Of a stretch of 61,250 bases of DNA, positions 3,372-26,628 are shown one piece after another (the first letter of the stretch is position 1; the number at the start of each line of letters is the position of its first letter). The stretch is from Halodesulfovibrio sp. (GTDB taxonomy: Bacteria > Desulfobacterota > Desulfovibrionia > Desulfovibrionales > Desulfovibrionaceae): assembly GCF_015482765.1 (NCBI RefSeq), contig NZ_JADMLB010000053.1, forward strand, positions 1-61,250, in the 5' to 3' direction. Made by a program: the position numbers and the translations under genes. The notes under the pieces are model-generated. The model saw only the letters and a program-made list of their open reading frames with translations. It was not told the origin of the DNA and ran no database searches.

Positions 3372-3435
3372 TCCGGCTGCCGGAACCGTTCAGTAATGCA
3401 TTATCAACCCCGCCTAGCGGCGCGGGGGAGAGTAT

Positions 3436-5697: not shown

Positions 5698-5709
5698 TGG
5701 AGGCTTTAT

Positions 5710-6360: not shown

Positions 6361-6362
6361 GC

Positions 6363-6710: not shown

Positions 6711-6748
6711 GAATCGTGGATAAGATTAATTTTTAAGGAGCCCTAATA

Positions 6749-7246: not shown

Positions 7247-7278
7247 TGTAGGGACAGCTCGTCACTGTAAATAGAATT

Positions 7279-7309
7279 AGCGAAGTCATTGATTTGACTT
7301 CGCTTTTTT
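7279..7309 (+). terminator. Rho-independent terminator of ssb
   Basis: AGCGAAGTCA and TGACTTCGCT form a perfect 10-bp stem around a 6-base loop, followed by a run of T. It separates ssb from the left end of the inserted element. Confidence 0.9.
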
Positions 7310-7310
7310 A

Positions 7311-7376
7311 TTTGTTTACGCTTTTTACAATTGTAAATATTTTTGCGACCTGTAGGTAAGAAAAAGTGTAAACAAA
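7311..7376. repeat. Left-end inverted pair of the 16-bp element motif
   Basis: TTTGTTTACGCTTTTT (7311-7326) and AAAAAGTGTAAACAAA (7361-7376) are inverted copies of one 16-bp motif with one mismatch, separated by 34 bases. The inner copy ends directly before the ATG of the first recombinase, so a bound recombinase could also block that gene's expression. A perfect 14-bp palindrome, TTTACAATTGTAAA, lies at 7324-7337. These look like recombinase binding sites; function is inferred. Confidence 0.75.
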
Positions 7377-10149: not shown

Positions 10150-12214
10150 AATTCTACTATTTAAACCACGCCACGAATTAGGTGCCCAAGGTAATCTTGA
10201 TGCTTTTATTGCTTTCGCACGCAACGACTTAACAGCATTTGGTTCTGATTTAGATTTTGATTCATATGTTTGGGATATTACCAAGGATATTGAAATAAAA
10301 GGGAAAGGGAACCAAGTACACAGGATCTATTTTACAAAACATCACTTAGTATTGAAGAAAAAGAACGATAAGGTACCTTTTTCAAAATTTTATCTTTCCT
10401 TTGCCCAAGCTTACCTTAGAAGTTTTTACACTAAGTATAAGGTACAAAGTTTTGCTCGACAGCTTGAGGCGTTACGCATGCTTGAAATAGCGTTAACTGA
10501 GAATGGTCATGACGTGCCTATAATAAAAATTAATGCAGATATCTTGAACAGAACTGCGCAACTTTTGAAGCAAAACTACTCTCCAAAACCGGCGTATGGT
10601 GCGGGAAAACAACTTAAGTTACTTGCTGATTTTTTAGTAAAGAAGCAAATGTTACTTGTGCCATTAGATTGGAAGTCCCCAATAAAGCGCCCTGTCGAAG
10701 TCATTAGTCGCTGTAGTAAGGAAGCGGAACAACGCAGAAAGGAAAAAATGCCTTCTGAACAGTTATTGGAAGCTCTTTCGTATGTCTATGTTAATGCAAC
10801 CACTGACCGTCAGATTTTGATATCATCAATTGCCGCACTTTTGTGTTCAGCACCAGATCGCATTAATGAGGTTCTTATTCTTCATAAAAATTGTGAAGTT
10901 GATGGCTTCGAAGGTGACCAAGATGTCTATGGTCACAGTTGGCGACCTGCAAAAGGTGCCAAGCCCATGGTGAAGTGGAAAATTAACACGATGATTGATA
11001 CCGCGAAGGAGGCCATTGAAAATATTCGCCAGATAACAGATCCCGCACGACAAGTGGCTGAATGGTATTATGATCACCCTGATAAGATATACCTTTTGCC
11101 TGAATTTGAATATTTGAGGAATAAAGAAAAGCTAACGTTCAAAGATGTTGCTCATATTTTGTGGGGAAAGGATGGGCGTGCTGGTTCTGCTCGTGACTGG
11201 TGTGTATCCCAAAAAATAGCAAGAAGCAAAGTAGGTAATCAATTCTATGTATGTTTTGCGGATGTTGAAAAGCATATATTAGAAATGATGCTCGTTCATT
11301 TTCCTTATGTAGACAATACAAAGTTGTTATTGATGCATGAAGCAATGATGCTTTGTTTTAAAGGTACATTCGGTAAGCGTGCAAAATATGTTTGTTTAGT
11401 CGAACCTATTACAATTGGACAGGTTAATGATGGTCTAGGTATTCGCTCTAAGCATGGTAAAAAATCAATATTCGATGAGTTTGATTTGAAAGAACTTGAC
11501 GGAAGCCCATTGGTTGCAACTACTCATACATTTAGACATTACCTCAATACAGTAGCAAAAACATGCGGTGTAGGGGAACTTAGAATAGCAAAATGGAGTG
11601 GACGAAAAAACCTACGACAGAATGCTGATTATGATCATAGTTTGAGAGAAGATGAATTAGCAAAGATTCGGAATGCCGTTGGTAATCTTGATAAGGCCAT
11701 GGGACCCATTGCTGCTGCACCAAAAAAGAAAAATCTGATTACACGCAGTGAATTTTCAGAATTGGAAATTGCTACAGCACATACAACAGCTATTGGGTAT
11801 TGTGTGCGAAATTTTGTGATGTCACCATGCACAAAGTTTATGGATTGTATTAATTGCAATGAGCATGTTTGTATTAAAGGTGACATAGAAAAGACAGCAC
11901 GAATTCGACAACAGTTGCAGGAAGCAGAAGGTATGCTTCAGCTAGCTATCAAGGAAGTTGAATACAGAAAAGGTAGCCCAACGTACTGTAATGACAAAAT
12001 TGACCGCTGGCTTGATCATCATAGTCAAACTGTGATGTTGTTAACAAAGCTTGTTGAAATAATGGATGATCCAAATGTTCCTTTGGGAACGGTGATTCAG
12101 CTGAGTGACGCTAAGCCTGCTTCTCGTATCGAACAGGCCACTAATGAAAAAAAAGCACTTGAAGAATCTGAAAAGAAGCCTCGTCGAGTATTGAAGCGGG
12201 GTTTAGCTTTATAG
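10142..12214 (+). CDS. Tyrosine recombinase 3 of the element (large)
   Basis: The start at ATG 10142 overlaps the previous stop by 8 bases, like the other junctions of this operon, and gives a 690-residue protein beginning MPKILLFKPRHELG. A longer upstream reading frame exists but lies inside recombinase 2. Catalytic residues are Arg240 (APDRINEVLIL), His462 and Arg465 (TTHTFRHYLNT) and Tyr497 (NADYDH). A Cys cluster follows the domain (CTKFMDCINCNEHVC), then a helical tail. The large size and Cys-bearing tail recall the bigger partner recombinases of Tn554-like and GMT-like multi-recombinase modules; that is a comparison from memory, not a search result. Confidence 0.87.
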   Translation: MPKILLFKPRHELGAQGNLDAFIAFARNDLTAFGSDLDFDSYVWDITKDIEIKGKGNQVHRIYFTKHHLVLKKKNDKVPFSKFYLSFAQAYLRSFYTKYKVQSFARQLEALRMLEIALTENGHDVPIIKINADILNRTAQLLKQNYSPKPAYGAGKQLKLLADFLVKKQMLLVPLDWKSPIKRPVEVISRCSKEAEQRRKEKMPSEQLLEALSYVYVNATTDRQILISSIAALLCSAPDRINEVLILHKNCEVDGFEGDQDVYGHSWRPAKGAKPMVKWKINTMIDTAKEAIENIRQITDPARQVAEWYYDHPDKIYLLPEFEYLRNKEKLTFKDVAHILWGKDGRAGSARDWCVSQKIARSKVGNQFYVCFADVEKHILEMMLVHFPYVDNTKLLLMHEAMMLCFKGTFGKRAKYVCLVEPITIGQVNDGLGIRSKHGKKSIFDEFDLKELDGSPLVATTHTFRHYLNTVAKTCGVGELRIAKWSGRKNLRQNADYDHSLREDELAKIRNAVGNLDKAMGPIAAAPKKKNLITRSEFSELEIATAHTTAIGYCVRNFVMSPCTKFMDCINCNEHVCIKGDIEKTARIRQQLQEAEGMLQLAIKEVEYRKGSPTYCNDKIDRWLDHHSQTVMLLTKLVEIMDDPNVPLGTVIQLSDAKPASRIEQATNEKKALEESEKKPRRVLKRGLAL

Positions 12215-12224
12215 GGTGAAGGTT

Positions 12225-12671
12225 ATGCGCAGTAATCGTTCAATTAATATTACAGAAGAATACCGAAATAAAATTATTTGGATAATTGATGGGTGGCAGG
12301 GGAAATTAACATGGGATCTGTTACTTACAAAAATTAAAAGACAAACAGGTCTGAAGTATACCCGACAAGCCTTAAGTAAGCACCCGCAAATAATTGATGC
12401 ATATCAAAGGCGAAAAAAGGTAGTTACAAAAACTAAGCTAGTTGAAGAGCGAAGTGCCGCTAGCTATTCTCAGGCAGAAATCCAAGCCATTGTTTCTCGT
12501 AATAATCAGTTAAAGATAGAAAACGAACAGTTGCGTGCTCAAAATGAACGCTTAATGCTCAAGTTTGTTGTCTGGTCTACTAATGCCCATACTCGTGGCC
12601 TAACGGAAGAATTCTTGAACCGGCCTTTGAATAGTATTGATCGTGACGCAACTAAGTCCAAAGCTTCATAA
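12225..12671 (+). CDS. Small HTH/coiled-coil protein of the recombinase operon (first)
   Basis: The 148-residue product begins MRSNRSINITEEY at ATG 12225; a GTG nine bases upstream is an alternative start. The N-terminal 60 residues look like a helix-turn-helix (WDLLLTKIKRQTGLKYTRQA). A predicted coiled coil follows (NNQLKIENEQLRAQNERLML). It follows recombinase 3 within a few bases and is certainly cotranscribed. Tn554 encodes a small accessory protein (TnpC) in the same position, and GMT islands encode GmtX. A directionality or assembly role is inferred. Confidence 0.75.
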   Translation: MRSNRSINITEEYRNKIIWIIDGWQGKLTWDLLLTKIKRQTGLKYTRQALSKHPQIIDAYQRRKKVVTKTKLVEERSAASYSQAEIQAIVSRNNQLKIENEQLRAQNERLMLKFVVWSTNAHTRGLTEEFLNRPLNSIDRDATKSKAS

Positions 12672-12691
12672 TATCAGTAGCTGGAGGGGAA

Positions 12692-13153
12692 ATGGGACAA
12701 AGCGGCAAAGTTCTGAGCAAGCAGTATTTGCAGGCGTTACAAAGCTATCTTTCCAGTACATCGAAGTTGCCTATTAATGCTGATGGTACAATAAATGTTA
12801 CCAAGCTTGCTGAAGAAGCAAGTGTCCCTCGGCAGTCGTTATACAAGAATCCCAAAATGAAGGCTGCACTAGAAGAAGCCCGTAAAGTCCATGGCGTTTT
12901 GAAGCGGGCTGAAGTGCAAAGTACTTCTACTAAGGCTTCCCGTAAAAAAGATAAGAAATTGTCTCTTAAGGCTGATAAGCAGGGAAGAGCATTGGAGCGT
13001 CGTGTTGAAAAATTGGAACAACAGAACGCCGTTTTAGTTGCAGAAAATTCAGACCTTCGAAAAAAGCTTGCCAATCTTCGTCAACAGCTTGGTCGTGAAG
13101 ATATGACGATTGAAACAGGGCGCAGGATCCCAGTTCCTTTTGACCATGCATAA
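12692..13153 (+). CDS. Small HTH/coiled-coil protein of the recombinase operon (second)
   Basis: This 153-residue protein has the same architecture as its upstream neighbour. An N-terminal helix-turn-helix-like segment (NVTKLAEEASVPRQSLYKNP) is followed by a basic linker and a strong C-terminal coiled coil (RVEKLEQQNAVLVAENSDLR). A GGAGGGG ribosome site precedes the ATG. Its stop overlaps the start of the helicase gene (ATGCATAA). The two small proteins may be an ancient duplication and may form a heterodimer; this is inferred from shape only. Confidence 0.75.
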   Translation: MGQSGKVLSKQYLQALQSYLSSTSKLPINADGTINVTKLAEEASVPRQSLYKNPKMKAALEEARKVHGVLKRAEVQSTSTKASRKKDKKLSLKADKQGRALERRVEKLEQQNAVLVAENSDLRKKLANLRQQLGREDMTIETGRRIPVPFDHA

Positions 13154-15251
13154 TACAGTTTCACTAACAGTTCATTCGTTACTCTTTCAGGCGGTTGATG
13201 GTACAGCAATTTTTTCTGGGCATCTAGAAGACGGTAAGTCTATTCGTGTAGTTGCTCGAAGTGGCGTACTGCCGAGACAGCCTGTTGTTGGTGAACTATG
13301 GGAAATTGCCGGGCATTATCGTGAGCATCAGATTTATGGACAGCAGTTGTATGCCAGCAGTGGAAAGAATGTAGTGCCTAAAGGGGCGTTGCTCATTCAA
13401 TACCTAGCAGCTCATCCAGAATTTGCTGGTGTTGGAAAAACTAAAGCTAAAGCGCTTTATGATGTGTTTGGCGACCAGCTGGTTGATATACTCAATGCCG
13501 GTGATGCAGATACTTTGACCTGTGTTGTGACCAGCAGTCTCGCTGACAGAATTATTAGCGTGTGGGCCGAACAGCAAGAAGATACGGCAGTCATAGCATT
13601 TTTAGACAAGTACGGATTTGAAGCGAATTTAGCGAATAAGCTTAAGAAGGTATGGGGTGCTAATGCCATAGCGATGCTGGAGCGCAATCCGTATTACATG
13701 TTGGCATTTTCTTCATGGAAACGTGTTGATGCTGCTGCAATGAAGATGAACATACCTATTGATGATAGCCGTCGGTTAGTAGGTGCCGTTGAAGCTGTTT
13801 TGTATGATCGATTACAAGACGGTCATACGCTGACCCCATCTCAAATGCTCCAGAACAGGCTGACGGATTTTCTTGGCAGATGGATTGATCTTGATGTCAA
13901 AACGTACGCCATTGCGTTAGCGTTAGAAGAAAATGCAATAGTTGGTGATAAAAATTTTGGATACCAGCCTGTGGGCGCTGCTGCGTTAGAACAGCGTATT
14001 GCTGGACGCATTCAGAACATGGTTCAAAAGGGGTGCTCCCCCCATTTCATGCGGGGTGCTCCAGAAAAGAAAAAGCAGATCTTAGAAGAAGTTGTTGCTA
14101 AGTGTGAAAGTGCTCAAGGCTTTCAGTTAAATCTACAGCAACAGCAAGCGTTGCATCTAGTTTTCGGTAATGCTTTTTCTGTTGTCACAGGGGGCGCAGG
14201 CGTCGGAAAGACAACGGTGCTCCGTGTCGTAAACGCTGTTGCAAAGAGGTTGGGCATTAGTGTTATTCAAATGGCACTTGCAGGTCGTGCCGCAAAACGG
14301 ATGACAGAAGTTACCAAACATGACGCAATAACTATTGCCCGATTTCTACATCAAATTAAATCCAGTGAATTTGAAATACCGTCTGGTTCTCTTATCATAA
14401 TAGATGAAGCATCAATGCTTGATCTACCGTCCACCTTCAGAATCCTTTCAAGTCTTCCTGACAATGTTCACGTTGTGTTCGTTGGGGATGCTGCCCAGCT
14501 TCCGCCTGTTGGCTTTGGCCTAGTGTTTCATCAGTTAGTGAAAAGTGACGTTATCCCCCGTGTTGAATTAACAGAAGTTCATCGCCAAGCAGCCGAAACT
14601 GGAATTCCCCAAATAGCAGCGTCTGTCCGGGACTCAATCGTTCCCGATCTTCCTTCATATGCCGGTAAGTCGTTAGGTGTTTCCTTTGTTGATTGTGATC
14701 AGAAAGATATTCTGTCTGTGTTGGAACGTCTGTCTACTGATTGGAATGGGAAAGAATTTCAAATTTTGGCTGCCACACGGCAAGGTGAAGCGGGTATCGA
14801 AAGAATTAATACTCATTTTTACCGTCAAAACATGGGCAAAAAGATCGTTTTTGGACAACTAAAGGTAAATGATCCTGTTATTCATTTACGCAACGATTAT
14901 GATCGAAATCTAATGAATGGAACGCTTGGTCATATAGTGTCTTTCGACGGCCAAGGTGACATAGACGTGAAAGTGGATTTTGAAGGTGTAATCCACTCGT
15001 TTTCCATAGAAGAAGTATTGGAAGTTGTGGAGCTGGCCTACGCAGTCTCAGTGCATAAAGCACAGGGGAGTCAATTCCAGCGTGTTATAGTGGTTGTTAC
15101 GAAGTCTAGACTGTTTGATCATGCACTTGTTTATACTGCACTTACGCGTGGTGTTGAACAGGTGGTTTTTGTAGGGGATAAGGGGGCTTTTGAAATGGCG
15201 GTGCGAAATTGTGCGCTAAGCAGTCGTCGTCAGATCGGCGAGGTTTGCTAG
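13146..15251 (+). CDS. RecD2-like SF1 helicase of the element
   Basis: The start at ATG 13146 (MHNTVSLTVHSLLF) overlaps the preceding stop by 8 bases and gives 701 residues. The N-terminal part resembles the OB and helix-hairpin-helix region of RecD2 (HPEFAGVGKTKAKALYDVFG). The motor core has Walker A TGGAGVGKTT (Lys355), Walker B LIIIDEASMLDLP, motif III VFVGDAAQLPPVG and the C-terminal AYAVSVHKAQGSQFQRVIVV. It should unwind DNA 5' to 3'. Its place as the last gene of the recombinase operon suggests it processes recombination intermediates or helps copy the element. It is not the RecBCD subunit, since recB and recC are absent. Confidence 0.85.
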   Translation: MHNTVSLTVHSLLFQAVDGTAIFSGHLEDGKSIRVVARSGVLPRQPVVGELWEIAGHYREHQIYGQQLYASSGKNVVPKGALLIQYLAAHPEFAGVGKTKAKALYDVFGDQLVDILNAGDADTLTCVVTSSLADRIISVWAEQQEDTAVIAFLDKYGFEANLANKLKKVWGANAIAMLERNPYYMLAFSSWKRVDAAAMKMNIPIDDSRRLVGAVEAVLYDRLQDGHTLTPSQMLQNRLTDFLGRWIDLDVKTYAIALALEENAIVGDKNFGYQPVGAAALEQRIAGRIQNMVQKGCSPHFMRGAPEKKKQILEEVVAKCESAQGFQLNLQQQQALHLVFGNAFSVVTGGAGVGKTTVLRVVNAVAKRLGISVIQMALAGRAAKRMTEVTKHDAITIARFLHQIKSSEFEIPSGSLIIIDEASMLDLPSTFRILSSLPDNVHVVFVGDAAQLPPVGFGLVFHQLVKSDVIPRVELTEVHRQAAETGIPQIAASVRDSIVPDLPSYAGKSLGVSFVDCDQKDILSVLERLSTDWNGKEFQILAATRQGEAGIERINTHFYRQNMGKKIVFGQLKVNDPVIHLRNDYDRNLMNGTLGHIVSFDGQGDIDVKVDFEGVIHSFSIEEVLEVVELAYAVSVHKAQGSQFQRVIVVVTKSRLFDHALVYTALTRGVEQVVFVGDKGAFEMAVRNCALSSRRQIGEVC

Positions 15252-15365: not shown

Positions 15366-16613
15366 ATGCATTATAAGAAATTAGAGCTAAATCACTGGCA
15401 ACAGTTTGAGAATGTTAAACTAGATTTTCATGAACGTTTAACTGTTTTGACTGGTGCAAATGGAAGTGGAAAAACCACTATCCTAAGTTTATTTGCTCGA
15501 CACGTTGGCTGGACAATTTCATCTCTTTCTACGCCTAAGCAAGATATAAAAACGAAAGCGATTCGATTTTGTACACGCTTATTTAAGGGCGAGGATAGAA
15601 GTCAAACACCGTCTATTGGAAACATTATTTATTCAAATGGTGTAGTTAGCAACTTAGTGATACCAACTCAAGACAGGGCACAGTATCAAATTCAAATACA
15701 AAATCAGCAAAGTGTTGACTGTATCTATATTCCTTCTCATAGATCTGCTTTTAGGTATCAGGCTGTAGGAAATATTCCGACTGCTAAGAAGACTAAGCAT
15801 AATGCTTTTACAGAAGTTTCTAATGTATATAGGCAACAATATTTGGGTAATGGCACTCAACCTTGCAGCTTTATGATGAAAAATGCTTTGATTGGGTGGG
15901 CCATTAATGGATATGGGGTTACCAATACAAATAACAAAGTAATAATGGCTCGAGATGTTGAGCAAATAAGTTTTTTCGAGGGCTTCCAAAATATATTAAG
16001 AAAAATTCTTCCACCATCATTGGGTTTTAAGGAAATAGAAATTCGAAATATGGAAATCGTTTTTGTTTGTAATGACGGAAATGATGAATTTTTATTAGAA
16101 ACAGCATCAGGTGGAATTAGTGCACTAATTGATATTGCATGGCAAATTTACATGTATGCCACTAAGGAACACTCAGATTTTACAGTAATAATAGATGAGG
16201 TTGAAAACCATCTACACCCGACAATGCAGCGTTCAATTCTGCAAAATTTGCTTGATGCGTTTCCCCAAGCAAGGTTTATTGTATCAACCCATAGTCCGCT
16301 TATCGTAGGATCTGTTAGGGATTCTGCTGTTTACGTTCTTAAGTATAATGAAGGTAAAAAAATAGAATCAACTCGATTGGATCTTGTTGGGCAGGCAAAG
16401 ACTGCTAGCGAAATTCTTGACGAAGTTTTAGGGGTGTCATTTACAATGCCTGTATGGGCTGAGAATAATCTAACTAGTATTATTGAAAAATATATTTCTG
16501 CACCAATAACGAAATCAAGTCTTTCAGATTTAAGAAAAGAATTAACTGAATCTGGTCTTGGGAAATTACTGCCATATGCGATTCAAGAAATAGCGGAGAA
16601 AGGCGATGATTAA
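15366..16613 (+). CDS. PtuA-like AAA ATPase (Septu-type defence)
   Basis: The 415-residue protein is an ABC/SMC-like ATPase of the AAA_15/OLD type. It has Walker A TGANGSGKTT (Lys36), an ABC-signature-like TASGGISALIDIAW, Walker B VIIDEVENHLHP (Asp277, Glu278) and the switch VSTHSPLIVGS. It overlaps the HNH gene by 8 bases. An ATPase of this class coupled to a small HNH nuclease is the composition of the Septu system (PtuA/PtuB) and of the effector of some retrons (Ec78/Ec83/Vc95 group). It probably senses infection and gates the nuclease. Base composition is clearly AT-rich. Confidence 0.8.
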   Translation: MHYKKLELNHWQQFENVKLDFHERLTVLTGANGSGKTTILSLFARHVGWTISSLSTPKQDIKTKAIRFCTRLFKGEDRSQTPSIGNIIYSNGVVSNLVIPTQDRAQYQIQIQNQQSVDCIYIPSHRSAFRYQAVGNIPTAKKTKHNAFTEVSNVYRQQYLGNGTQPCSFMMKNALIGWAINGYGVTNTNNKVIMARDVEQISFFEGFQNILRKILPPSLGFKEIEIRNMEIVFVCNDGNDEFLLETASGGISALIDIAWQIYMYATKEHSDFTVIIDEVENHLHPTMQRSILQNLLDAFPQARFIVSTHSPLIVGSVRDSAVYVLKYNEGKKIESTRLDLVGQAKTASEILDEVLGVSFTMPVWAENNLTSIIEKYISAPITKSSLSDLRKELTESGLGKLLPYAIQEIAEKGDD

Positions 16614-17187
16614 GTTAAATAGACCCGCTTGTCCTTACCCAGCTGCATTGGAAAATGGAAACTATAAGCATCCGAGAAATAAGGAAGCGTTGAAGAACGC
16701 AAGTTTTGATAAGTGCATGTATTGTGAAAGCAAAATTTCTCATATTGACTTTGCGCATGTGGAACACATTAAGCCGAAAGCTGACGGTAAATTTCCTGAA
16801 TTGGAATTTGATTGGGACAATCTGGGATATGCTTGTCCAAAATGTAATAATGCAAAGTCTGATAAATATTATGCTGAATGTCCGTACATCAATCCTTATC
16901 GGGATGATCCTGACGAACATTTCTTTGCTGCGGGGACATTTTTATTTATAAAAAATGGTTCAGAAAGCGCTGATTTAACTATCCGGGATATAAAATTAAA
17001 TAGACCAGAATTATTAGAAGTACGCTTTACTCGTATAAATGAAATTCAGAAAACATTGAACGCTTGTCATCGATGCACATCTCCTGTGCTAAAACAGCTT
17101 TTGTTAGATGAATTAGAATCAGAAGCTAGTGAAGATAAAGAATTTTCTTTTTTTGTGAAAGCGATTCTTGCGGCACATGCCGCATAG
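16606..17187 (+). CDS. PtuB-like HNH endonuclease
   Basis: This 193-residue protein carries a zinc-supported HNH nuclease: Cys37-xx-Cys40 (KCMYCESK), the HVEHIKPK block (His51, Glu53, His54), Asn72 (DWDNLGYAC), and Cys77-xx-Cys80 followed by NNAKSDKY. The layout matches PtuB-type nucleases. The start overlaps the ATPase gene by 8 bases, so the two are translationally coupled and probably form one complex that cuts DNA or RNA on activation. It could be a stand-alone Septu system or be functionally joined to the retron 60 bases downstream. Confidence 0.8.
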   Translation: MIKLNRPACPYPAALENGNYKHPRNKEALKNASFDKCMYCESKISHIDFAHVEHIKPKADGKFPELEFDWDNLGYACPKCNNAKSDKYYAECPYINPYRDDPDEHFFAAGTFLFIKNGSESADLTIRDIKLNRPELLEVRFTRINEIQKTLNACHRCTSPVLKQLLLDELESEASEDKEFSFFVKAILAAHAA

Positions 17188-17249: not shown

Positions 17250-18128
17250 ATGATGTCGCTTAATGGTAATACCGCAGCTAGATTAAAAGTAATACTTGAG
17301 AAGGTAATTGACCCGCATTTTCCCATAGGTGAGGGTGAGGTTGGTTACGAGGCATTTGAAAAGGGTTGTGATCTACTTGCGAAATTGGATGAGACTCAAC
17401 AGAATTTAATATTAACATTGCTTGAGAACTATCAGTTTATCAACGTTCTTGAGTATAGTTCTTTATGTACTCAAGCAATAAAGAATATAGACTTTGGAAG
17501 ATTCAGCGATATTGAATCAATAAGTATTGTTCCCTGTATTACTAAAAAAGATCATGATGCTGGTAACTATAAGAGTGGACTGGGAATCGTAAATAATTAT
17601 CGCACAAAGAACTTTAAGGTGCTTATTGGAAAAAAACTTGGTTCAAAATGCGATTTAAGCCCCAAGTGTTTCTCTTCTCCTTTTAGTTATTCAAATCCTC
17701 GGAATAAGCGTGATCTGTTAATTTTTGTGGATGACTTTGTTGGAACAGGAAAAACAGCAACTAAAGCAATCGATGATTTTTTCTCAAATTCTTCAAGAAA
17801 AAAAGAAAATTTTTGTCTAACTGTTTTGGGTAGTATGCAGGACGGATACAATGTGCTTCAGAAAAAGGACTATCCATTTTATACAGTAAAGAAGTTTAAT
17901 CGTGGTATTACGGATTGCCCTATTTTTAAAAAGAAAAAAGAAACGATTGAACTTATGAAGTCTATTGAAGAAAATCTGAAAAATTGTCCTAAATATTCTC
18001 TTGGATATGAGAAGTCTGAAGCATTAGTTACAATGCAGCGGACACCTAATAATACATTTCCAGTCTTTTGGGATTCAGAAACTAAAGGAGGTTTAGAATG
18101 GCCGGCACCTTTTCCTCGATTTCTGTAA
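17250..18128 (+). CDS. Phosphoribosyltransferase-like retron accessory protein (putative effector)
   Basis: The 292-residue protein contains a PRPP-binding signature of phosphoribosyltransferases, LLIFVDDFVGTGKTA (Asp161-Asp162, then Gly-Thr-Gly-Lys-Thr to Thr169). Its tail includes the distinctive LVTMQRTPNNTFPVFW stretch seen in PRTase-CE-like conflict proteins. An AAGGTGG site lies just before two consecutive ATGs (17250 and 17253). The next gene starts inside its 3' end. PRTase plus a small winged-helix protein plus a retron RT is, as I recall, the composition of type III retrons. The PRTase would be the toxic effector, probably modifying a nucleotide or nucleic acid. Substrate unknown. 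Confidence 0.75.
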   Translation: MMSLNGNTAARLKVILEKVIDPHFPIGEGEVGYEAFEKGCDLLAKLDETQQNLILTLLENYQFINVLEYSSLCTQAIKNIDFGRFSDIESISIVPCITKKDHDAGNYKSGLGIVNNYRTKNFKVLIGKKLGSKCDLSPKCFSSPFSYSNPRNKRDLLIFVDDFVGTGKTATKAIDDFFSNSSRKKENFCLTVLGSMQDGYNVLQKKDYPFYTVKKFNRGITDCPIFKKKKETIELMKSIEENLKNCPKYSLGYEKSEALVTMQRTPNNTFPVFWDSETKGGLEWPAPFPRFL

Positions 18129-18445
18129 CTTCTTCTCCGTATTTTGTTATGCTACTTCGCCTTATAAAAGGTCATAACGATATAAGTTTTCTTACTCAAA
18201 AAGGTATTACTTACTCGGATATTTTCCATATGTTATCGGAAGGAGAAACTGAAGGTTATCTTAAACGTTCTATGAGGACTTTGATCTTGACAGAAAAGGG
18301 TGAAGAACTCATAACCAAGCTTCCAGTTTCTGGTATGAAGTCAAGTGGTTGGATAGAAGGCCCTTCAGAAGATGTTTTTTGTGAACAGATAAGCCTTACT
18401 GATGTGTTTCTTCCAACTGCAGATGATATTAAAAAATTTCCATAG
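18098..18445 (+). CDS. Small winged-helix-like retron accessory protein
   Basis: This 115-residue product starts inside the PRTase gene, overlapping it by 31 bases. A perfect AAAGGAGG site six bases before the ATG (18087-18094) supports that start. The central segment (DIFHMLSEGETEGYLKRSMR, then LILTEKGEELI) has the shape of a winged helix-turn-helix ending in the TEKG wing common to such regulators. It probably binds the msDNA or regulates the PRTase. Its stop codon's last base is the first base of the retron RNA's a1 repeat. Confidence 0.7.
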   Translation: MAGTFSSISVTSSPYFVMLLRLIKGHNDISFLTQKGITYSDIFHMLSEGETEGYLKRSMRTLILTEKGEELITKLPVSGMKSSGWIEGPSEDVFCEQISLTDVFLPTADDIKKFP

Positions 18446-18692
18446 GCATGACTTCTCTATTAGCCGATGCAAAGTAAAGCATGCTTTACCTAGCATGAAT
18501 GGCGATTCGCCATTCTCGAACGAACAAGCTTTCAAGCCACCCACTAGGCATATTTAAAACATTCAAGGATTCACGTTTTAAACATGCCTAGTGCACGGCA
18601 GAGCCGTACAAATACATAAGTAAAATCGCCAAGGCCCGATTTCACTTATGTATTTGCCAGATCTGTCATGATAGTAATGGAGAAGTCATGCC
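18445..18692 (+). ncRNA. Retron msr-msd RNA
   Basis: The 17-base a1 (18445-18461, GGCATGACTTCTCTATT) pairs with a2 (18676-18692, AATGGAGAAGTCATGCC) with one G-U pair. Directly after a1 comes AGC, the position of the branching guanosine in known retrons, here G18463. The msr part then shows a palindromic hairpin at 18474-18489 and a stem-loop GAATGGCG/CGCCATTC at 18497-18515. Two long stems follow, each with a single A-C mismatch: 18542-18560 with 18575-18593 (19 bp), and 18609-18628 with 18637-18656 (20 bp, loop CCAAGGCC). The last stem, nearest a2, is the likely msd template. The a2 repeat contains the RT's GGAG site and start codon. Confidence 0.85.
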
Positions 18693-19728
18693 TGATTTAA
18701 ATTGGGATAAATATTTAGCTGATTTTACAAACCAAGCTAAAGACGCTCAGATGACTGATTGGGGCATCGAGCGATCAATAGCCTATGCTCATAGGTTATA
18801 TTCACAGGATCTTCCGATCATTTATTCGCCAAAACATTTAAGTAGTCTTCTGGGGTATGATCTTGAATATCTACTAGGTGTTTCTAACGCTCCCCAAGTT
18901 TTTTACCGTTCGTTTTCAATTCCCAAAAGAACGAAAGGGAAACGCAGAATATCTGAACCGTTGCCGGGGCTTAAAGATATTCAATATTGGCTCGCTAATA
19001 ATTTTTTTTCTTGTTTTCCTGTAAGTAAATACGCAAAGGCTTATTTGAAAAAAAGTTCTATTAAGGCCAACGCACGCTTTCACAGAAGACAACCTTGCGT
19101 AATGCGTTTGGACATCAAAAATTTTTTTCCGTCTATTAATACAAATAAGATTTTTAGACAGTTACTTGCTCATGGCTACACAACTAGTGTGTCGATGTTA
19201 ATAGCGAAGTTGTGTACGCTTTATAATGAGCTGCCTCAAGGTGCTCCTACAAGTCCTGTTTTGTCTAATTTACTTATGTATAAAGCTGATAACAGGCTTG
19301 GTGCTTTTGCCCAGTATAATGGTTATCGATACACACGTTACGCGGATGACTTGTTTTTTTCCGGTCGAATAAATATTGGTAATGTTGTTCAATTTACCAA
19401 AAATGTTTTGATGTACGAAGGGTTTAATTTAAATGAAGAGAAAACCCGTGTGTATCGAAAAGGTCAGCAGCAAAGGGTGACAGGAATTGTTGTTAATGAA
19501 AAATTGCAAGCTACGCGAAAATATAGACGGCAGTTACGGCAAGACATTCATTACATAGAACGTAATGGTTTGATGGGGCATATGCTCAAGAAGAATATTA
19601 CGCAGAATAATTACCCAGAACACTTAGCAGGCAAGGCGCATTTTATACTTCAGATTAATCCAAACGATAAGGATGCGAAACATGCTTTAAAAGTTTTGGA
19701 GCCTATTTTGAAACGCACTACAGGGTAA
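18688..19728 (+). CDS. Retron reverse transcriptase
   Basis: This is a retron-class reverse transcriptase of 346 residues that should make msDNA from the RNA encoded directly upstream. Retron hallmarks are all visible. The NAxxH motif of region X is NARFH (residues 128-132). Motif A is RLDIKNFF (Asp142), and the PQGAPTSP motif starts near residue 183. The catalytic YADD is at 218-221, and the VTG of region Y is at 264-266 (VTGIVVN). The ATG and its GGAG site lie inside the a2 repeat of the msr-msd RNA, so translation and RNA folding compete. Group II intron maturase features are missing. Confidence 0.92.
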   Translation: MPDLNWDKYLADFTNQAKDAQMTDWGIERSIAYAHRLYSQDLPIIYSPKHLSSLLGYDLEYLLGVSNAPQVFYRSFSIPKRTKGKRRISEPLPGLKDIQYWLANNFFSCFPVSKYAKAYLKKSSIKANARFHRRQPCVMRLDIKNFFPSINTNKIFRQLLAHGYTTSVSMLIAKLCTLYNELPQGAPTSPVLSNLLMYKADNRLGAFAQYNGYRYTRYADDLFFSGRINIGNVVQFTKNVLMYEGFNLNEEKTRVYRKGQQQRVTGIVVNEKLQATRKYRRQLRQDIHYIERNGLMGHMLKKNITQNNYPEHLAGKAHFILQINPNDKDAKHALKVLEPILKRTTG

Positions 19729-19763: not shown

Positions 19764-19812
19764 AAAAAGTGTAAATAAAATAGCTAATAAACGTGTTTTG
19801 TTTACACTTTTT
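19764..19812. repeat. Right-end inverted pair of the 16-bp element motif
   Basis: AAAAAGTGTAAATAAA (19764-19779) and TTTGTTTACACTTTTT (19797-19812) repeat the left-end motif. The spacer is 17 bases here versus 34 at the left. The inner copies at the two ends are direct repeats over 18 bases with one difference (7361-7378 and 19764-19781), and so are the outer copies over 16 bases (7311-7326 and 19797-19812). They mark the probable right boundary of the element. Confidence 0.75.
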
Positions 19813-20120
19813 TTGAGGGTGTCTTATGAAAGCCTTATTTTACATACACATACACCCTTGTTTGCAGTTTTTTACCTACATAACCCTTTTAACCAACGCA
19901 GGTTTTAGAAAAATATACAAACCCTCCATGAGTGTTACTCATGGAGGGTTATTTTTTTGCATAAAAAAGAACAGCATAGATTTTGTGCTGTACTTGACAT
20001 GGTATATTTTGGGCGGTACTGAATTAAGGACACCTTTTGGACACGACCATAATCTATGTTGAGTTTTCAAATTATTCAAGCCGGATGTGCTGAGGGTGTG
20101 CACCTGAAATTGGAAAATAT
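19813..20120 (+). other. Intergenic region between element end and regulator gene
   Basis: No convincing gene is seen in these 308 bases. An open frame that begins at 19826 runs straight through a strong terminator and has no ribosome site. The region holds that terminator (19920-19958) and a possible promoter for the downstream regulator, TTGACA at 19994 with TACTGA at 20017. Two GGACAC copies follow at about 20028-20043; they resemble the GGACA core of the palindrome found downstream of the regulator gene. Confidence 0.5.
19920..19958 (+). terminator. Rho-independent terminator right of the element
   Basis: AACCCTCCATGAG and CTCATGGAGGGTT form a perfect 13-bp stem with a TGTTA loop, followed by ATTTTTTT. 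It insulates the element from the regulator gene downstream. Confidence 0.9.
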
Positions 20121-21410
20121 ATGAAACAGACCATTGCCCTTATAGGTCCTTCCGACTCCGTGAAGGTTATGAAAGATTCCGTAATACGGTTCTTTCCTAA
20201 TCTTGCGTTCAAGACCTATATTCGAGAACGAACTGAAGATTCGCATGAGGTGCTTGAGTTAAGCCAGAGCGAATGCGATGGTTTGTTGTTTTCCGGTATT
20301 GGGGTTCAGGAAGCGTGTAAGGCACGAGGTGTTATTACTAAGCCGTATGCGCAGATTGAACGTGGTGCGTATAGTCTCATGCGTGTGTTTTCTGAAATTC
20401 AACACAGCGGGTTGCCGTTGGGGCGAATCAGCATTGATGTTGTGAAAGAGAGTGTTCTGCGCGAAGTTTTGCGTGAGTTCGGTGTGAGTTTTGAAAAGGT
20501 CTATTCTATGCCTTTTTCTGTACAGCACCGCGAACAGGAGTTTCATGACTGGCATAGAGACTTACTGGACTCCGATGAAGTTGATGTTACTGTGACAGGC
20601 TTCGGTTCAGTATATCAACAGTTGATAGAAGCAGGACATCCTGTATTTCGCATGTTGCCAAGCGCCTTGCAGGTTCGTGAGACAATAACCCATTTACTTG
20701 GAGATATTTCGGCACGTGATCTGCGTTCTGCCGGCATTGCTATCCAAATTATCGGGCTTTGCCGTAACGAAGAACACGCCATCAACCAGTATGACCGAAT
20801 GAAAGATGAAGGGCGTTTCTTTTTGGAGATGCTTGATTATGTTCGGGCAGTGCAGGGCAGTTTATTTTCGATTGGTAAACGGGAATATGTAATATTTTCT
20901 ACTCGAGGCGTTATTGAAGCGCCTGAACATCTTGAGATGTTTAAGCACCTTCTTGATTGGGGGCGCGGGAATAATATTCGTGTAATCTCTGGAATCGGAA
21001 TCGGAGCAACAGCATTTGAAGCAGAAAAGTCTGCGCAAAAAGCATTGGCTAACAGCCGTAAGTTGCCAGATGGTGGGGTTTTTCTTGTCCACGATGATCA
21101 TATTCAAGGACCATTGGGGGAGCAGGATGAACTTCAATATCGGACACGTATTGAGGACACGACTCTTTTACGGATGGCAAAAGAGATAGGTATCAGTCCA
21201 AGCTACCTCGATAGAATACGAGCTATTATGGACAAGACAGGGAAGAGCACCTTTGATGCGGATGACCTTGCAGCATGTTTAAGTATTGGTGAACGCAGCG
21301 CGCGCAGAGTGCTTAAGAAATTTTTAGATAGTGGACATGCTAAATTAGTGGGCAAAGAAAATTCACATCAAGTTGGTCGTCCAAAAAATATGATAAAAAT
21401 TACCATTTAA
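20121..21410 (+). CDS. GGDEF-like/HTH transcriptional regulator
   Basis: The 429-residue protein looks like a transcription factor. It has an N-terminal sensor-like region (IALIGPSDSVKVMKDSVIRF), a central degenerate GGDEF/CdaR-like segment (RVISGIGIGATAFEAEKSAQ) and a C-terminal helix-turn-helix (LAACLSIGERSARRVLKKFL) ending in a basic arm. It lies directly upstream of the DUF3100/amidohydrolase operon on the same strand. A perfect 13-bp palindrome sits between them, so it most likely controls that operon and perhaps itself. I cannot name its ligand. Confidence 0.7.
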   Translation: MKQTIALIGPSDSVKVMKDSVIRFFPNLAFKTYIRERTEDSHEVLELSQSECDGLLFSGIGVQEACKARGVITKPYAQIERGAYSLMRVFSEIQHSGLPLGRISIDVVKESVLREVLREFGVSFEKVYSMPFSVQHREQEFHDWHRDLLDSDEVDVTVTGFGSVYQQLIEAGHPVFRMLPSALQVRETITHLLGDISARDLRSAGIAIQIIGLCRNEEHAINQYDRMKDEGRFFLEMLDYVRAVQGSLFSIGKREYVIFSTRGVIEAPEHLEMFKHLLDWGRGNNIRVISGIGIGATAFEAEKSAQKALANSRKLPDGGVFLVHDDHIQGPLGEQDELQYRTRIEDTTLLRMAKEIGISPSYLDRIRAIMDKTGKSTFDADDLAACLSIGERSARRVLKKFLDSGHAKLVGKENSHQVGRPKNMIKITI

Positions 21411-21425
21411 TATTTTTATGGGTTA

Positions 21426-21456
21426 ATTTCGGACATGTTTTTGACATGTCCGAAAT
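21426..21456. promoter_or_regulatory. Perfect palindrome between regulator and transport operon
   Basis: ATTTCGGACATGT (21426-21438) and ACATGTCCGAAAT (21444-21456) are perfect inverted arms around TTTTG. There is no T run after the hairpin, so an operator for the preceding regulator is at least as likely as a terminator. Confidence 0.5.
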
Positions 21457-21596
21457 ATATGAACGTTTGTTACCATCAAATGAGGAGGGCTATATCAGAA
21501 GACAGAGAGGGGTTGTGTAGACCTGTTGTTTTGAAGGAGGCCGCATCAGCTTATCGTATATGCTGGTGCCAATACACAGGGTTTTAACGTTAGGAA

Positions 21597-22403
21597 ATGA
21601 GTATGTTAGAAGCAATTAAGAACGTAAAAGTACACCTGCTTGTTCTTGCGCTGGTGGTTGGCGCAGAATTCATAGGTATTCTTAAATTTGATGTGGGACC
21701 GGGTAAACTTGTACTGCTGCCAATGTTGTATGCTGTTTTCCTTGGTACCTTTTTAGGACCAAAATTTCTTAAGGTCGTTAATGACAAAGATATGGACAAC
21801 GCGAGTGCCTTAGTAAGCTTGACTCTTATGCTGCTTATGGCTCGTTACGGTACGCTGGTTGGCCCTAAATTCTTTGAAATTTTGAAAGCTGGTCCGGCTC
21901 TTATCTTACAGGAATTCGGTAACATCGGTACGCTGCTTATCGGTATTCCAATTGCGATGTTCCTTGGCCTTAAGCGTGAAGCTGTGGGGGCGGCTCACTC
22001 TATTGCCCGTGAGCCGAACGTAGCATTGATCGGTGATATTTATGGCTTAGACTCTGCTGAAGGCCGCGGTGTAATGGGTGTATACATTTGCGGTACAGTG
22101 TTCGGCACTATTTTCTTTGGTCTGGCTGCATCTATGTTGAGCATATTAAACTGGTTCCATCCATATGCATTAGCAATGGCTTCCGGTGTTGGTTCTGCAA
22201 GTATGATGACTGCTACCGTGGGCAGCCTTTCTGCAATCTACCCAGAAATGGCAGACAAAATCCAGGCATTCGGTGTCGCAAGTAACACACTTTCCGGTCT
22301 GGATGGTGTATACATGTCAATGATCATTGCTTTGCCGATGTCTAACAAGCTTTACAAGATTCTGTACCGCATTAAGTTCGGTACCCCGCAGGAGGGCAAG
22401 TAA
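21597..22403 (+). CDS. DUF3100 family membrane protein (putative transporter subunit)
   Basis: This 268-residue protein is strongly hydrophobic, with about eight predicted membrane segments (for example VHLLVLALVVGAEFIGI and GTLLIGIPIAMFLGL), and matches my recollection of the DUF3100 family. A second ATG six bases in fits the GTTAGGA site slightly better. Its stop overlaps the ATG of the next gene (TAATG). Together with the next membrane protein and an M20 amidohydrolase, it probably imports an N-acylated amino acid or peptide-like substrate; that is context inference. Confidence 0.7.
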   Translation: MSMLEAIKNVKVHLLVLALVVGAEFIGILKFDVGPGKLVLLPMLYAVFLGTFLGPKFLKVVNDKDMDNASALVSLTLMLLMARYGTLVGPKFFEILKAGPALILQEFGNIGTLLIGIPIAMFLGLKREAVGAAHSIAREPNVALIGDIYGLDSAEGRGVMGVYICGTVFGTIFFGLAASMLSILNWFHPYALAMASGVGSASMMTATVGSLSAIYPEMADKIQAFGVASNTLSGLDGVYMSMIIALPMSNKLYKILYRIKFGTPQEGK

Positions 22404-22849
22404 TGAATAAAGTCACTGAATCTGCAATTGTACTCCTGATCGTTGGTGCTATTACACTGATCGGTAACTGGATAGGCTACGGTTTCGGTATCATGGAAGC
22501 TCTTCCCGGCATGGCGGTGCTTGTAGGGATCTGCATTCTTGGTGTGCTTGCAAACAAGTACATCTATAACCTGCCGACAGTGTTATATGTTATTACGTTC
22601 GGTATGATCATTACCATGCCTGGCGTTCCCGGACACGAGATGTTTGCCGGATGGGTTGCGAAAGTAAACTTTCTGGCTTTAACCACTCCAATCCTTGCCT
22701 ATGCCGGTGTCGGTATCGGGAAGGACTTGCCTGCACTGAAAAAAACAGGATGGCGTATCGTGGTTGTCAGCCTGTTTGTTATGACTGGCACATATGTCGC
22801 TTCTGCCGGTATTGCCCACGTTGTTTTGAAATTCCTTGGAGAAATCTAA
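22403..22849 (+). CDS. Small membrane protein, partner of the DUF3100 protein
   Basis: The 148-residue protein has four to five membrane segments (SAIVLLIVGAITLIGNWIGY, AVLVGICILGVLANKY, IVVVSLFVMTGTYVASAGIA) and no recognisable soluble domain. Start and stop are fused to its neighbours: the ATG overlaps the upstream stop, and the next gene begins one base after its stop. It is almost certainly the second subunit of a two-component transporter with the DUF3100 protein. Confidence 0.7.
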   Translation: MNKVTESAIVLLIVGAITLIGNWIGYGFGIMEALPGMAVLVGICILGVLANKYIYNLPTVLYVITFGMIITMPGVPGHEMFAGWVAKVNFLALTTPILAYAGVGIGKDLPALKKTGWRIVVVSLFVMTGTYVASAGIAHVVLKFLGEI

Positions 22850-24004
22850 ATGATTTTGAAGCCTGAAATAGAGGTTTATTTTGAGGAACTAAAAAGTATC
22901 CGACAACACCTGCACTCCTGTCCGGAGGTAGGGCTGGAAACGAGCGAAACAGTAGCTTTTATTAAAGGCAAACTGGATGAGTTTGGTGTCGGGTATGAAG
23001 ACATCGGCGTAAATTCGCTGTTGGCTAAGATTGAAGGACGGGGGGCGGGTAAAACTGTTGCTTTTCGTTCTGACATGGATGCTCTTGAAACTGTGGAGGA
23101 AACTGGACTTCCCTACCAGTCTACAGTCAAAGGGCGCATGCATGCCTGTGGGCATGACGGGCACACAACAACAATGTTGGCGTTTGCCCGCTATCTGGCA
23201 GAACATGGCGAGTTCGAGGGGACCGTACTCCTTCTTTTCCAGTCAGGAGAAGAAGGATACGGTGGGGCATTAAAGGTTATTGAAGACAACCTGTTTGAAA
23301 AATACAGTATTGATTATATGTTCGGTCTTCATAACTGGCCGGGGTATGCAGAAGATCAGGTTGTGGTTCATTTCGGTGCCTGTATGGCATCTGAGGATCG
23401 TTTTGATCTTGTAATCCGCGGTAAAAGCGGGCACGCCTCGGTACCTCATTTGTGTGTAGAGCCGTTTGCGGCTGTTGCAGACTTTGTTAAAGGTGCACAG
23501 ACCATTATTCCACGCAGGATTTCTGCACACGATAAAGCTGTAATCAGCATCACTCAGGTTCATGGCGGCAGTGCATATAATGTCATTCCGGATGAAGTCA
23601 TTATTCGTGGTAACGTGCGTACCACAGACGATGACGTTCAGGATCTCATTGAGGAATCTCTCGGAAAATTGGCGGATGGTATTGCTGAAATGTATCAGGT
23701 GGAAACACTCTTTACGTATAATCGAAAACATCCAGTGTTGATGAATTCAACACCGGAGTTGGCAGTTAATGCCGCTGCACGGGTTGTGGGTAAGGAGAAT
23801 GTTTTGACACAGGAGCTTCCTGCAATGGGAAGTGAAGACTACGCGTTCTACATGCAGAAAACAAAAGGATGTTTTGTGTGGGTAGGGAATGGTGTAGATT
23901 CGCCTGTGATCCATAACAGTAAATACGACTTTAACGATACAGCAATACTTGTCGGAAGCTCTGTTTTTGTAGAGCTACTGAATGAGGTCATGCAGCTGCC
24001 GTAG
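22850..24004 (+). CDS. M20 family metallo-amidohydrolase
   Basis: The 384-residue enzyme belongs to the M20D group (hippurate hydrolase, N-acyl-amino-acid amidohydrolase). The metal-site motifs are DMDALE, ACGHDGHTT, SGEEGYGGA and GLHNWPG, with IHNSKYDFND near the C-terminus. The lid-domain segment GKSGHASVPH is present. It should cleave an amide bond of an N-acyl amino acid in the cytoplasm. It is the last gene of the operon with the two membrane proteins, suggesting hydrolysis of the substrate they import. GGAG in the end of the preceding gene serves as ribosome site. Confidence 0.88.
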   Translation: MILKPEIEVYFEELKSIRQHLHSCPEVGLETSETVAFIKGKLDEFGVGYEDIGVNSLLAKIEGRGAGKTVAFRSDMDALETVEETGLPYQSTVKGRMHACGHDGHTTTMLAFARYLAEHGEFEGTVLLLFQSGEEGYGGALKVIEDNLFEKYSIDYMFGLHNWPGYAEDQVVVHFGACMASEDRFDLVIRGKSGHASVPHLCVEPFAAVADFVKGAQTIIPRRISAHDKAVISITQVHGGSAYNVIPDEVIIRGNVRTTDDDVQDLIEESLGKLADGIAEMYQVETLFTYNRKHPVLMNSTPELAVNAAARVVGKENVLTQELPAMGSEDYAFYMQKTKGCFVWVGNGVDSPVIHNSKYDFNDTAILVGSSVFVELLNEVMQLP

Positions 24005-24069
24005 TGCATGCTGAATAACCGCTTCGCTAAACGCTAAACGTTAACAGACGTCAAACAACCGTACTTTTG

Positions 24070-24116
24070 AGGCTGTCCGGCGCTCTGAGCTTTTCAGAGT
24101 CTGGGCAGCCTTATTT
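24070..24116 (+). terminator. Hairpin terminator after the amidohydrolase
   Basis: AGGCTGTCC (24070-24078) pairs with GGGCAGCCT (24103-24111), with an inner stem CTCTGA/TCAGAG, followed by a T-rich tract. It ends 17 bases before the serine dehydratase ATG, so it could also act as an attenuator for that gene. Confidence 0.65.
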
Positions 24117-24132
24117 TATAGAAGGTGATAGT

Positions 24133-25353
24133 ATGGATTCTTTAAAAGAACTCTATAAAATTGGTAATGGTCCCTCAAGCAGCCACACAATGGGACCGCA
24201 GAAAGCTGCTGAAATTTTTTTAAAACGCTGTCCGAATGCTTCAGGATACCGAGTCACCTTGCTTGGTAGCCTTGCGGCCACGGGCAAAGGGCATTTGACA
24301 GATTGGATTATTGAAAAAACACTCGGGGCACAGCGCACAGAAATAGTGTGGCGTGCAGACGAGGTTCGTCCATTTCATACTAACGGTATGGTGTTTGAAG
24401 CACTAAATGAACAGGGTGTCGTGAGTTGTGAGTGGGAAGTGTACAGCGTTGGTGGAGGTACAATTGCCGAGGCAGGTGCTTCCAACAGGGGGGCAGACGC
24501 TCTGTATCCTCATACAACATTTGCTGAGATTATGTCGTATTGCCGTACTCATGATTTAGAATTGTGGCAGTACGTTGAAGAACAGGAAGGGCCTGAAATA
24601 TGGTCGTTTCTTGAATTGATATGGGAAGCAATGCTGACATCCATTGAGAGGGGATTGAATCGTACAGGAGTGTTGCCTGGTGAGCTTCGATATCCACGTA
24701 AAGCCAATACGTTTTTTAAAAAAGCACGTACTCATTCTGGACGATTGAATGGTACGGGTAAAATTTTTGCTTACGCGCTTGCTGTCTCAGAAGAAAATGC
24801 TTCTGGCGGCAAGGTGGTAACGGCTCCTACATGCGGCTCTTCAGGTGTAGTTCCTGCTGTACTTCGCTCTTTGCAGGAAGAATATGGTTTGGACAAGCAG
24901 GAGCTTTTGCGCACCTTGGCTGTCGGGGGACTTATTGGAAACCTTGTGAAGGAAAATGCTTCCATTTCCGGCGCAGAAGTCGGCTGTCAGGGCGAAGTCG
25001 GTACTGCTTGTGCCATGGCAGGTGCAATGACTGCGTATGTTTTTGGTGGTACTCTGATGCAGATAGATTACGCTGCTGAAATGTCGCTTGAGCATCATCT
25101 CGGCATGACCTGTGATCCGATAGATGGTTATGTTCAGGTTCCATGTATTGAGCGGAATGCCGTTTCAGCTGTGCGGGCAATTAATGCTGCTGAATATACA
25201 ATGTTGACGGATGGAGAGCACCGGATAAGCTTTGATCAGGTCGTGCTTACCATGGCCGAAACAGGACGTGATTTGAAATGCGGGTATCGAGAAACTTCGT
25301 TAGCAGGATTGGCGAAATACGGTTGCAAGGGAAATTGCGGCGGTGGTTGTTAG
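24133..25353 (+). CDS. L-serine ammonia-lyase (iron-sulfur, single chain)
   Basis: This enzyme deaminates L-serine to pyruvate and ammonia using a [4Fe-4S] cluster. The start at ATG 24133 follows a GAAGGTGA site and gives 406 residues beginning MDSLKELYKIGNGPSSSHTMG, typical of the beta domain. A longer frame upstream passes through the terminator hairpin and is not used. Cluster cysteines lie in APTCGSSG, VGCQGEVGTAC and MTCDPIDG. The alpha domain ends in KGNCGGGC. Beta and alpha domains are fused as in SdaA-type enzymes. It probably supplies pyruvate for energy metabolism. Confidence 0.88.
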   Translation: MDSLKELYKIGNGPSSSHTMGPQKAAEIFLKRCPNASGYRVTLLGSLAATGKGHLTDWIIEKTLGAQRTEIVWRADEVRPFHTNGMVFEALNEQGVVSCEWEVYSVGGGTIAEAGASNRGADALYPHTTFAEIMSYCRTHDLELWQYVEEQEGPEIWSFLELIWEAMLTSIERGLNRTGVLPGELRYPRKANTFFKKARTHSGRLNGTGKIFAYALAVSEENASGGKVVTAPTCGSSGVVPAVLRSLQEEYGLDKQELLRTLAVGGLIGNLVKENASISGAEVGCQGEVGTACAMAGAMTAYVFGGTLMQIDYAAEMSLEHHLGMTCDPIDGYVQVPCIERNAVSAVRAINAAEYTMLTDGEHRISFDQVVLTMAETGRDLKCGYRETSLAGLAKYGCKGNCGGGC

Positions 25354-25528
25354 TTGAGTTTCTAACGTTTGCGGCAGGCCAAACAGATTTACCATGAAAT
25401 AGACTGAGATTGATGTCCTGACAAGATGAAGAGTTATCTCTTTAAGGTTGTCGTTGTTTCATTTATGTAGGGAACAGAGGCGGCTTTTGCCTTTGTTTTT
25501 ATATCAATGGATTCTAAAAAGGATATTT

Positions 25529-26464: not shown

Positions 26465-26619
26465 TAATAAAAAAAGCCTCTCACGGAGGAGAGGCTGAAA
26501 ATGCTAACACAGCCTCATGGTTCCGCTTCTCGCGGGGTGGCTTAGCACCTTGCACTACTGTTGGTAGTATAGGTTGCCGGACAGTCATTGGGCCAGATCC
26601 CTCGTGTCCTCTTCATGAG
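26465..26619 (-). promoter_or_regulatory. SAM-I (S-box) riboswitch with expression-platform terminator
   Basis: Read on the minus strand, the conserved S-box core is clear: GAGGGATCTGGCCCAATGA, then CCGGCAACC, then AAGGTGCTAAGCC. The P1 helix is CTCATG (26614-26619) with CATGAG (26514-26519). A terminator follows: AGCCTCTC/GAGAGGCT at 26475-26496, then a T run. The GAGGCTG of the 3' P1 flank can pair with the CAGCCTC of the terminator's first arm, forming an antiterminator. Ligand binding should therefore switch expression off. This arrangement is typical of SAM-I switches, but the regulated gene is not a methionine enzyme. Confidence 0.92.
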
Positions 26620-26628
26620 ATAAGTACT

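Follow-up and report, generated by a model that had tools for sequence, protein, structure and literature searches.

Two type III-A retrons, Bpu1 and Ppe1, were studied in 2025 (PMC12548924). Bpu1 formed RT-DNA in E. coli yet gave no defence against a panel of 12 phages; for Ppe1, transformation of E. coli did not succeed. The passages on them give no target for the PRTase, which accords with the statement in a first-pass annotation of the present DNA that type III retrons are few in experimental work and that their PRTase target is unknown. Literature searches combining retron with PRTase or type III returned passages with no report of such a target for III-A retrons. In PMC9122126, PRTases are described as probable retron effectors whose action is unknown. 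A literature search for retron, Desulfovibrio and defense led to passages in which the RTs were described as DGRs.

The window, the whole stretch of 61,250 nucleotides analysed here, originated from Halodesulfovibrio sp. (contig NZ_JADMLB010000053.1). Judged from its sequence, the locus at 17250-19728 is a type III-A retron, a new member and not a new kind. The types were defined by PADLOC names and PMC12548924. The locus combined an RT of the III-A group with an intact YADD motif, a PRTase gene, a WH partner and an RNA with a1/a2 arms and the branch-G context.

Gene content and kinship of the locus

Three open frames, for PRTase, WH and RT, lay in series on the forward strand, the first two overlapping by 31 bases:

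17250-18128, + strand: PRTase gene, 292 aa, presumed effector (PADLOC PRTase_III-A 3.1e-62; Pfam PRTase-CE 5.2e-21)
18098-18445, + strand: WH gene, 115 aa, small partner assigned by profile to the winged-helix class (PADLOC WH_III-A 2.5e-14)
18688-19728, + strand: retron reverse transcriptase (RT) gene, 346 aa (PADLOC RT_III-A; RT tree; YADD intact)

The motifs NARFH, YADD and VTG are hallmarks of retron RTs. The first-pass annotation had reported all three in the RT and had described a type III-like locus in which PRTase and winged-helix genes precede the RNA. The motifs were present at residues 128, 218 and 264, the accessory genes were confirmed by PRTase_III-A and WH_III-A, and the type was upheld by III-A matches for all three proteins and by the grouping of the RT with III-A loci. 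The PADLOC profile marks the small protein as the predicted WH partner of a III-A retron; no Pfam or NCBIfam match was found for it at E <= 0.01.

Among the best 25 of 80 PADLOC models, RT_III-A ranked first for the RT with 436.6 bits (1.4e-131), and the best model of a different name was Ec107-like (1.4e-89). NCBIfam retron_St85_RT matched at 240.1 bits, over its cut-off of 235, and Pfam RVT_1 at 1.9e-20. The best sequence relatives in the PDB were retron RTs, led by Ec86 (2.4e-36). That the RT belongs to another class, such as group II introns, DGRs or DRTs, can practically be discounted. The matches on that side were weak and family-wide, the group II RT model and Drt3a reaching 57.4 bits each against NCBIfam cut-offs of 300 and 200, and they are opposed by the RT_III-A score, by retron_St85_RT above its cut-off and by the PDB relatives headed by Ec86. 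On profile scores, the refuting condition named in the first-pass annotation, an RT that groups with group II introns or DGRs, was not borne out, and a DRT identity was refuted as well.

The 111 rows of the RT tree were all retron-like RTs, and none from group II introns or DGRs had been added deliberately. The window was placed inside an 18-row set (SH-aLRT 96), ten rows of which had a PRTase neighbour, and its nearest RT was the III-A RT of G179, a genome of the same family. The other eight rows were labelled 'none' for PRTase and included L024, with only 418 bases upstream of the match, and L016, with HipA_2 and DUF3037 genes as neighbours. Across the tree, the PRTase label changed nine times compared with about 28 times in shuffles, so that it was clustered on the RT tree without forming one clade. 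L016 (positions 2119-3743), from a Tritonibacter plasmid, carried its III-A1-branch RT with HipA_2 and DUF3037 in the Sda1 arrangement, and the Salipiger RT L035 was its near twin in the tree.

In the PRTase, the PRPP-loop motif VDDFVGTGKT was intact at residues 160-169. D161, G165, G167 and G252 were invariant in 31 aligned PRTases including that of the window, and S109, P266, N267, W274 and R290 were nearly invariant. An AlphaFold2 model from 20 alignment rows had a mean pLDDT of 88.6 and likely contains a type I PRTase core. Foldseek against the PDB ranked uracil PRTases first (best E 2.3e-5), followed by nicotinamide, purine and orotate PRTases. TM-scores by query length were low: the listed uracil PRTases reached 0.25-0.33 and nicotinamide PRTases scored below them, so the substrate is not readable from the fold matches. 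A sequence search of the PDB returned no PRTase, its two matches having E values of 0.053 and 0.069.

PRTase matches were detected in 36 of the 182 records scanned. The locus set held 31 members including the window, after removal of L001 (a copy of the window), L105 and L106 (repeats of L104), L165 and L023, the last as a weak, distant match. A separate WH gene was found by profile in 25 of the 31, again counting the window, and the plasmid relatives L014, L015, L017 and L018 shared the order PRTase, WH, gap, RT. In L036, L064, L083 and L110, the PRTase frame was 385-435 aa long and extended at its C-terminus; the extension in L036 matched the WH profile, and the four are probable PRTase-WH fusions. 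The Rhizobium frame L040 (positions 3497-4255) stopped before the conserved C-terminal NN..FW region and is possibly broken; its RNA helix was strong.

Within the order, RT matches at E <= 1e-30 occurred in 13 of 297 genomes, the window's own included. Matches more significant than 1e-60 came only from the window and G179, which agrees with the earlier description of the host group as little sampled for retrons. The RT of G179 was 48-49% identical to that of the window (1.0e-101). PRTase, WH and RT stood in the same order there, with identities of 31% for PRTase and 34% for WH, and the retron adjoined the P2-like phage tail genes GpU and GPD baseplate hub. A scan of 395 genomes of the phylum, partly overlapping the order set, returned the window itself as the only match passing 1e-55 for the RT. 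Single-protein scans of genome contigs and viral contigs revealed no close RT relatives; alignment-based scans of the same sets did find RT relatives among the best 80 of each.

The retron RNA and the codons in its stem

The RNA was divided into the following features:

18443-18694, + strand: retron noncoding RNA (msr-msd), from a1 to a2 (fold statistics; folds of relatives)
18443-18462, + strand: a1 arm, the WH stop codon being its first three bases (inverted-repeat and helix scans)
18463, + strand: predicted branch G in TTAGCC (sequence; directly 3' of the a1/a2 duplex)
18497-18538, + strand: msr block, a hairpin plus CGAACGAACA..CTTTCAAGCC (conserved in G179)
18542-18670, + strand: probable msd template, two long hairpins at 18542-18593 and 18594-18670 (folds, inverted repeats)
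18675-18694, + strand: a2 arm with GGAG at 18679-18682 and the RT start codon at 18688

The region 18440-18700 folded at -103.1 kcal/mol, compared with a shuffle mean of -53.1 (sd 4.6, z -10.95), and none of 200 shuffles was as low. Positions 18444-18462 paired with 18675-18693 over 19 nt at 95% complementarity, the whole a1/a2 duplex being 19-20 nt long. When helices were sought within the gap region only, this one scored 44.0, the highest value among the 31 loci; of 40 dinucleotide shuffles, the best reached 25.5. Seventeen of the 31 beat all 40 shuffles and many loci stayed at chance level; L029, L064 and L083, among the 17, were not trusted, their 3' arms lying past the first RT starts. 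A count made without a shuffle control showed a1 ending in TA, a G directly after it and a2 beginning with TA in 13 of 31 loci, and TAG within six bases after a1 in five further loci (L002, L014, L032, L107 and L108). The a1 sequence differed between loci with its a2 partner following, which is covariation in kind, unscored. The msr block was kept in G179 at 37 of 42 bases, and the sequence beyond aligned poorly. When the RNA of the window was aligned with those of three relatives, the sequences were too divergent outside this block to support a covariance model.

According to the relevant passages of the review PMC6868368, the priming G most often occurs in TAGC, and the stem, with 8-30 complementary bases, contains this G or ends just before it. 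The RNA of the window fits this description in its TAGC, in its stem end and in the length of complementarity. The first-pass annotation had placed an RNA with a1/a2 repeats and an AGC context directly upstream of the RT. The repeats and the context proved real; the position needed correction, as a2 reaches 18694, seven bases into the RT gene. At gathering scores, Rfam gave no retron RNA match in the whole window. The sole Rfam match there at these scores was a SAM riboswitch at 26512-26621 on the reverse strand (63.1 bits).

The WH stop codon (18443-18445) opened a1, and a2 included the ribosome site and start codon of the RT. G179 was built likewise, with the WH stop codon in a1 and the RT start codon and most of GGAG in a2. 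Folding of the RNA and translation of the RT may therefore compete. Fifteen loci had a usable helix and an RT start chosen from annotation, homology or the first start (L030, with an unclear start, was omitted); in these, the gaps from a2 to the RT start were -17, -8, -7 (window), 4, 4, 4, 4, 5, 5, 6, 12, 20, 22, 23 and 27 bases. Ten of these were at most six bases and three were overlaps; the helix with gap 23, that of L015, was equalled by one of 40 shuffles. Computed openness of the region -18 to +6, without a shuffled control, was 0.50 without a1 and 0.13 with a1 in the window; the corresponding values for G179 were 0.36 and 0.11. In the same uncontrolled comparison, openness decreased on inclusion of a1 in ten of the 15 loci, did not change in one and increased in four. 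An RT start at 18751 instead would void the overlap of a2 with the start codon; counter to this downstream start, the RTs of the window and G179 aligned in their first residues.

One conjecture is that the RNA of this III-A branch is a translation-coupled switch, in which ribosomes ending the WH gene would cover a1 and those starting the RT would cover a2, so that any one transcript either serves RT translation or folds into the retron RNA. A phage that slows translation would then alter how much RNA there is relative to RT, and in this way arm or release the PRTase. This reading as a whole is improbable. A literature search on stop and start codons in the stem gave no title on the subject among the matches listed. 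The overlap of a2 with the start codon offers a direct test of whether folding of a retron RNA controls RT synthesis.

The mobile element and its defence cargo

Comparison of insertion sites indicates that a recombinase/helicase element, inserted after ssb, carries the retron and a neighbouring Septu pair as cargo. Its features outside the retron were:

7361-7378, + strand: left terminal repeat of the element (direct repeat D1; similar at both ends in G238)
7377-15251, + strand: mobility module with two tyrosine recombinases, a 708-aa protein, two small genes and a RecD2-like helicase
15366-16613, + strand: PtuA, Septu ATPase, neighbouring cargo (PADLOC PtuA 2.5e-162)
16606-17187, + strand: PtuB, Septu HNH nuclease, neighbouring cargo (PADLOC PtuB 3.1e-64)
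19764-19891, + strand: right end of the element, with the second repeat copy at 19764-19781 (direct repeat; match to G238)

The repeat AAAAAGTGTAAAYAAAAT was located near both ends, at 7361 and 19764, and G238 had similar repeats. In G160 and G131, the bases matching window positions 7244 and 25445 were directly joined. G129 was nearly joined there, with 79 unmatched bases, and G145 held about 3 kb of other DNA. Nothing matching the right flank was found in the sequence compared around ssb in G143 and G171, and the comparison left out G076 and G285. In G238, the site downstream of ssb was occupied by relatives of the recombinase module, the two small genes and the RecD2-like helicase in the same order with 48-59% amino acid identity. 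Its right end was 74% identical to 19765-19891 and ran straight into the 25445 flank. The slot occupied by Septu and the retron in the window held Hachiman and PDC-S19 in this sister element (L198, G238:C10:34000-51700), with PADLOC matches to HamB (2.8e-74), HamA (4.5e-6) and PDC-S19 (3.3e-139). One cargo slot in two ssb-linked elements was filled by different defence systems. The layout of stop and start codons in the stem and this exchangeable cargo are parts worth following.

A second segment, 19892-25444, lay between the right end of the element and the old flank downstream of ssb. Its genes, named by eye, were regulator-like (20121-21410), membrane genes, an M20-like peptidase (22850-24004) and a serine dehydratase-like gene (24067-25353). 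The segment was absent at that site in G160, G131 and G238 and was partly matched elsewhere in G238 and G171.

Gamma-mobile-trio, Tn554-like and recombinase-in-trio elements are known for recombinases in a row with small genes. The element of the window, at most a candidate for this group, resembles them in its serial recombinases and small genes, and differs in the 708-aa protein, which had no match to a Pfam, NCBIfam or PADLOC model and is taken as a third recombinase. Counting the window's own, eight of the 297 genomes from the order encoded relatives of this protein; among 72,556 plasmid records, 54 did so. A 153-aa protein matched VPA1267_fam at 38.5 bits, below the cut-off of 90, and DUF6262 at 33.1 bits (cut-off 29). 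No Gmt-named model occurred among the E <= 1 matches of five genes, from a library that may hold no such models.

The position of the Septu pair raised the alternative that PtuAB is a second effector, the type III retron gaining or changing its effector as proposed in print for II-A1/I-A (Septu) and Sda1 (HipA/DUF3037). The pair shared the strand of the PRTase gene and ended 62 bases upstream of it, and PtuA and PtuB matched ATPase_I-A (126.8 bits) and HNH_I-A (63.7 bits); their best profiles, however, were those of stand-alone PtuA (539 bits) and PtuB (214.8 bits). The III-A retron L015 of a Priestia plasmid also adjoined an AAA ATPase and a 'retron system putative HNH endonuclease', but in a gene order and strand that differed from the window. 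Among the ORFs of 182 records, many of them short-flanked (phmmer 1e-5), PtuA was found beside PRTase or RT only in the window, L015 and L064, and PtuB only in the window and L015. With PRTase and WH intact in the window, a role of PtuAB as effector is very unlikely, and since the element carries defence genes, Septu-type neighbours are expected. A Septu-type (I-A) retron was likewise rejected, as the RT scored III-A first among the best 25 of 80 models and the best profiles of PtuAB were stand-alone Septu. In L015 itself (positions 5210-8151, Priestia megaterium), the AAA ATPase and retron-type HNH pair was convergent.

Slightly less probable still is that the retron is a decayed or silent passenger, no longer making msDNA or providing defence. 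The retron genes had a GC content of 34-37% compared with 45-47% in the flanks, which suggests import, and promoter-like sites were at chance level, with 13 found and 16.3 expected. Against decay, all three ORFs were open with YADD and the PRPP loop intact, the a1/a2 score was the top of the 31 loci, and in all three genes third codon positions differed most from G179 (0.63-0.71 versus 0.31-0.57 at the first and second positions).

Proposed action and comparison with known systems

The gene content, intact motifs, RNA anatomy, kinship, mobile context and predicted PRTase-like fold are, very probably, jointly explained by a III-A retron in which the RT makes msDNA and the PRTase is restrained until a phage releases it and growth stops. 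By analogy with other retrons, the RT would copy part of the RNA at 18443-18694 into msDNA branched from G18463. A particle of RT, RNA and msDNA, probably with WH as adaptor, would keep the PRTase effector inactive. A phage disturbing the particle or the msDNA would free the PRTase, which would act on PRPP together with a base, nucleotide or nucleic acid; that it uses PRPP and depletes a nucleotide pool is a guess. This action would halt growth before phage release, as abortive infection. We infer msDNA synthesis, toxin restraint, triggering and abortive infection at this locus from such analogy.

The DprA-PRTase defence pair of P2-like phages (PMC9122126) is likened to the locus by description, the PRTase being thought the effector in both; unlike the window, the passage on the pair names no RT or RNA. 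The Retron-Sda1 type, described in PMC12548924 with a III-A1-like RT, a HipA-like kinase and DUF3037, shares an RT branch with the window through L016, and differs in that the window keeps PRTase and WH. The type III-A retrons as named by PADLOC and in PMC12548924, with Bpu1 and Ppe1, share with the locus the content of PRTase, WH, ncRNA and RT and the RT and PRTase families. Unlike these known III-A retrons, the locus belongs to a host order with two such loci in 297 genomes, its a2 overlaps the RT start, and a recombinase/helicase element with Septu carries it. A complete-looking III-A retron from a thinly sampled order, together with its distant sister of the same family, adds a further pair for finding the PRTase target.
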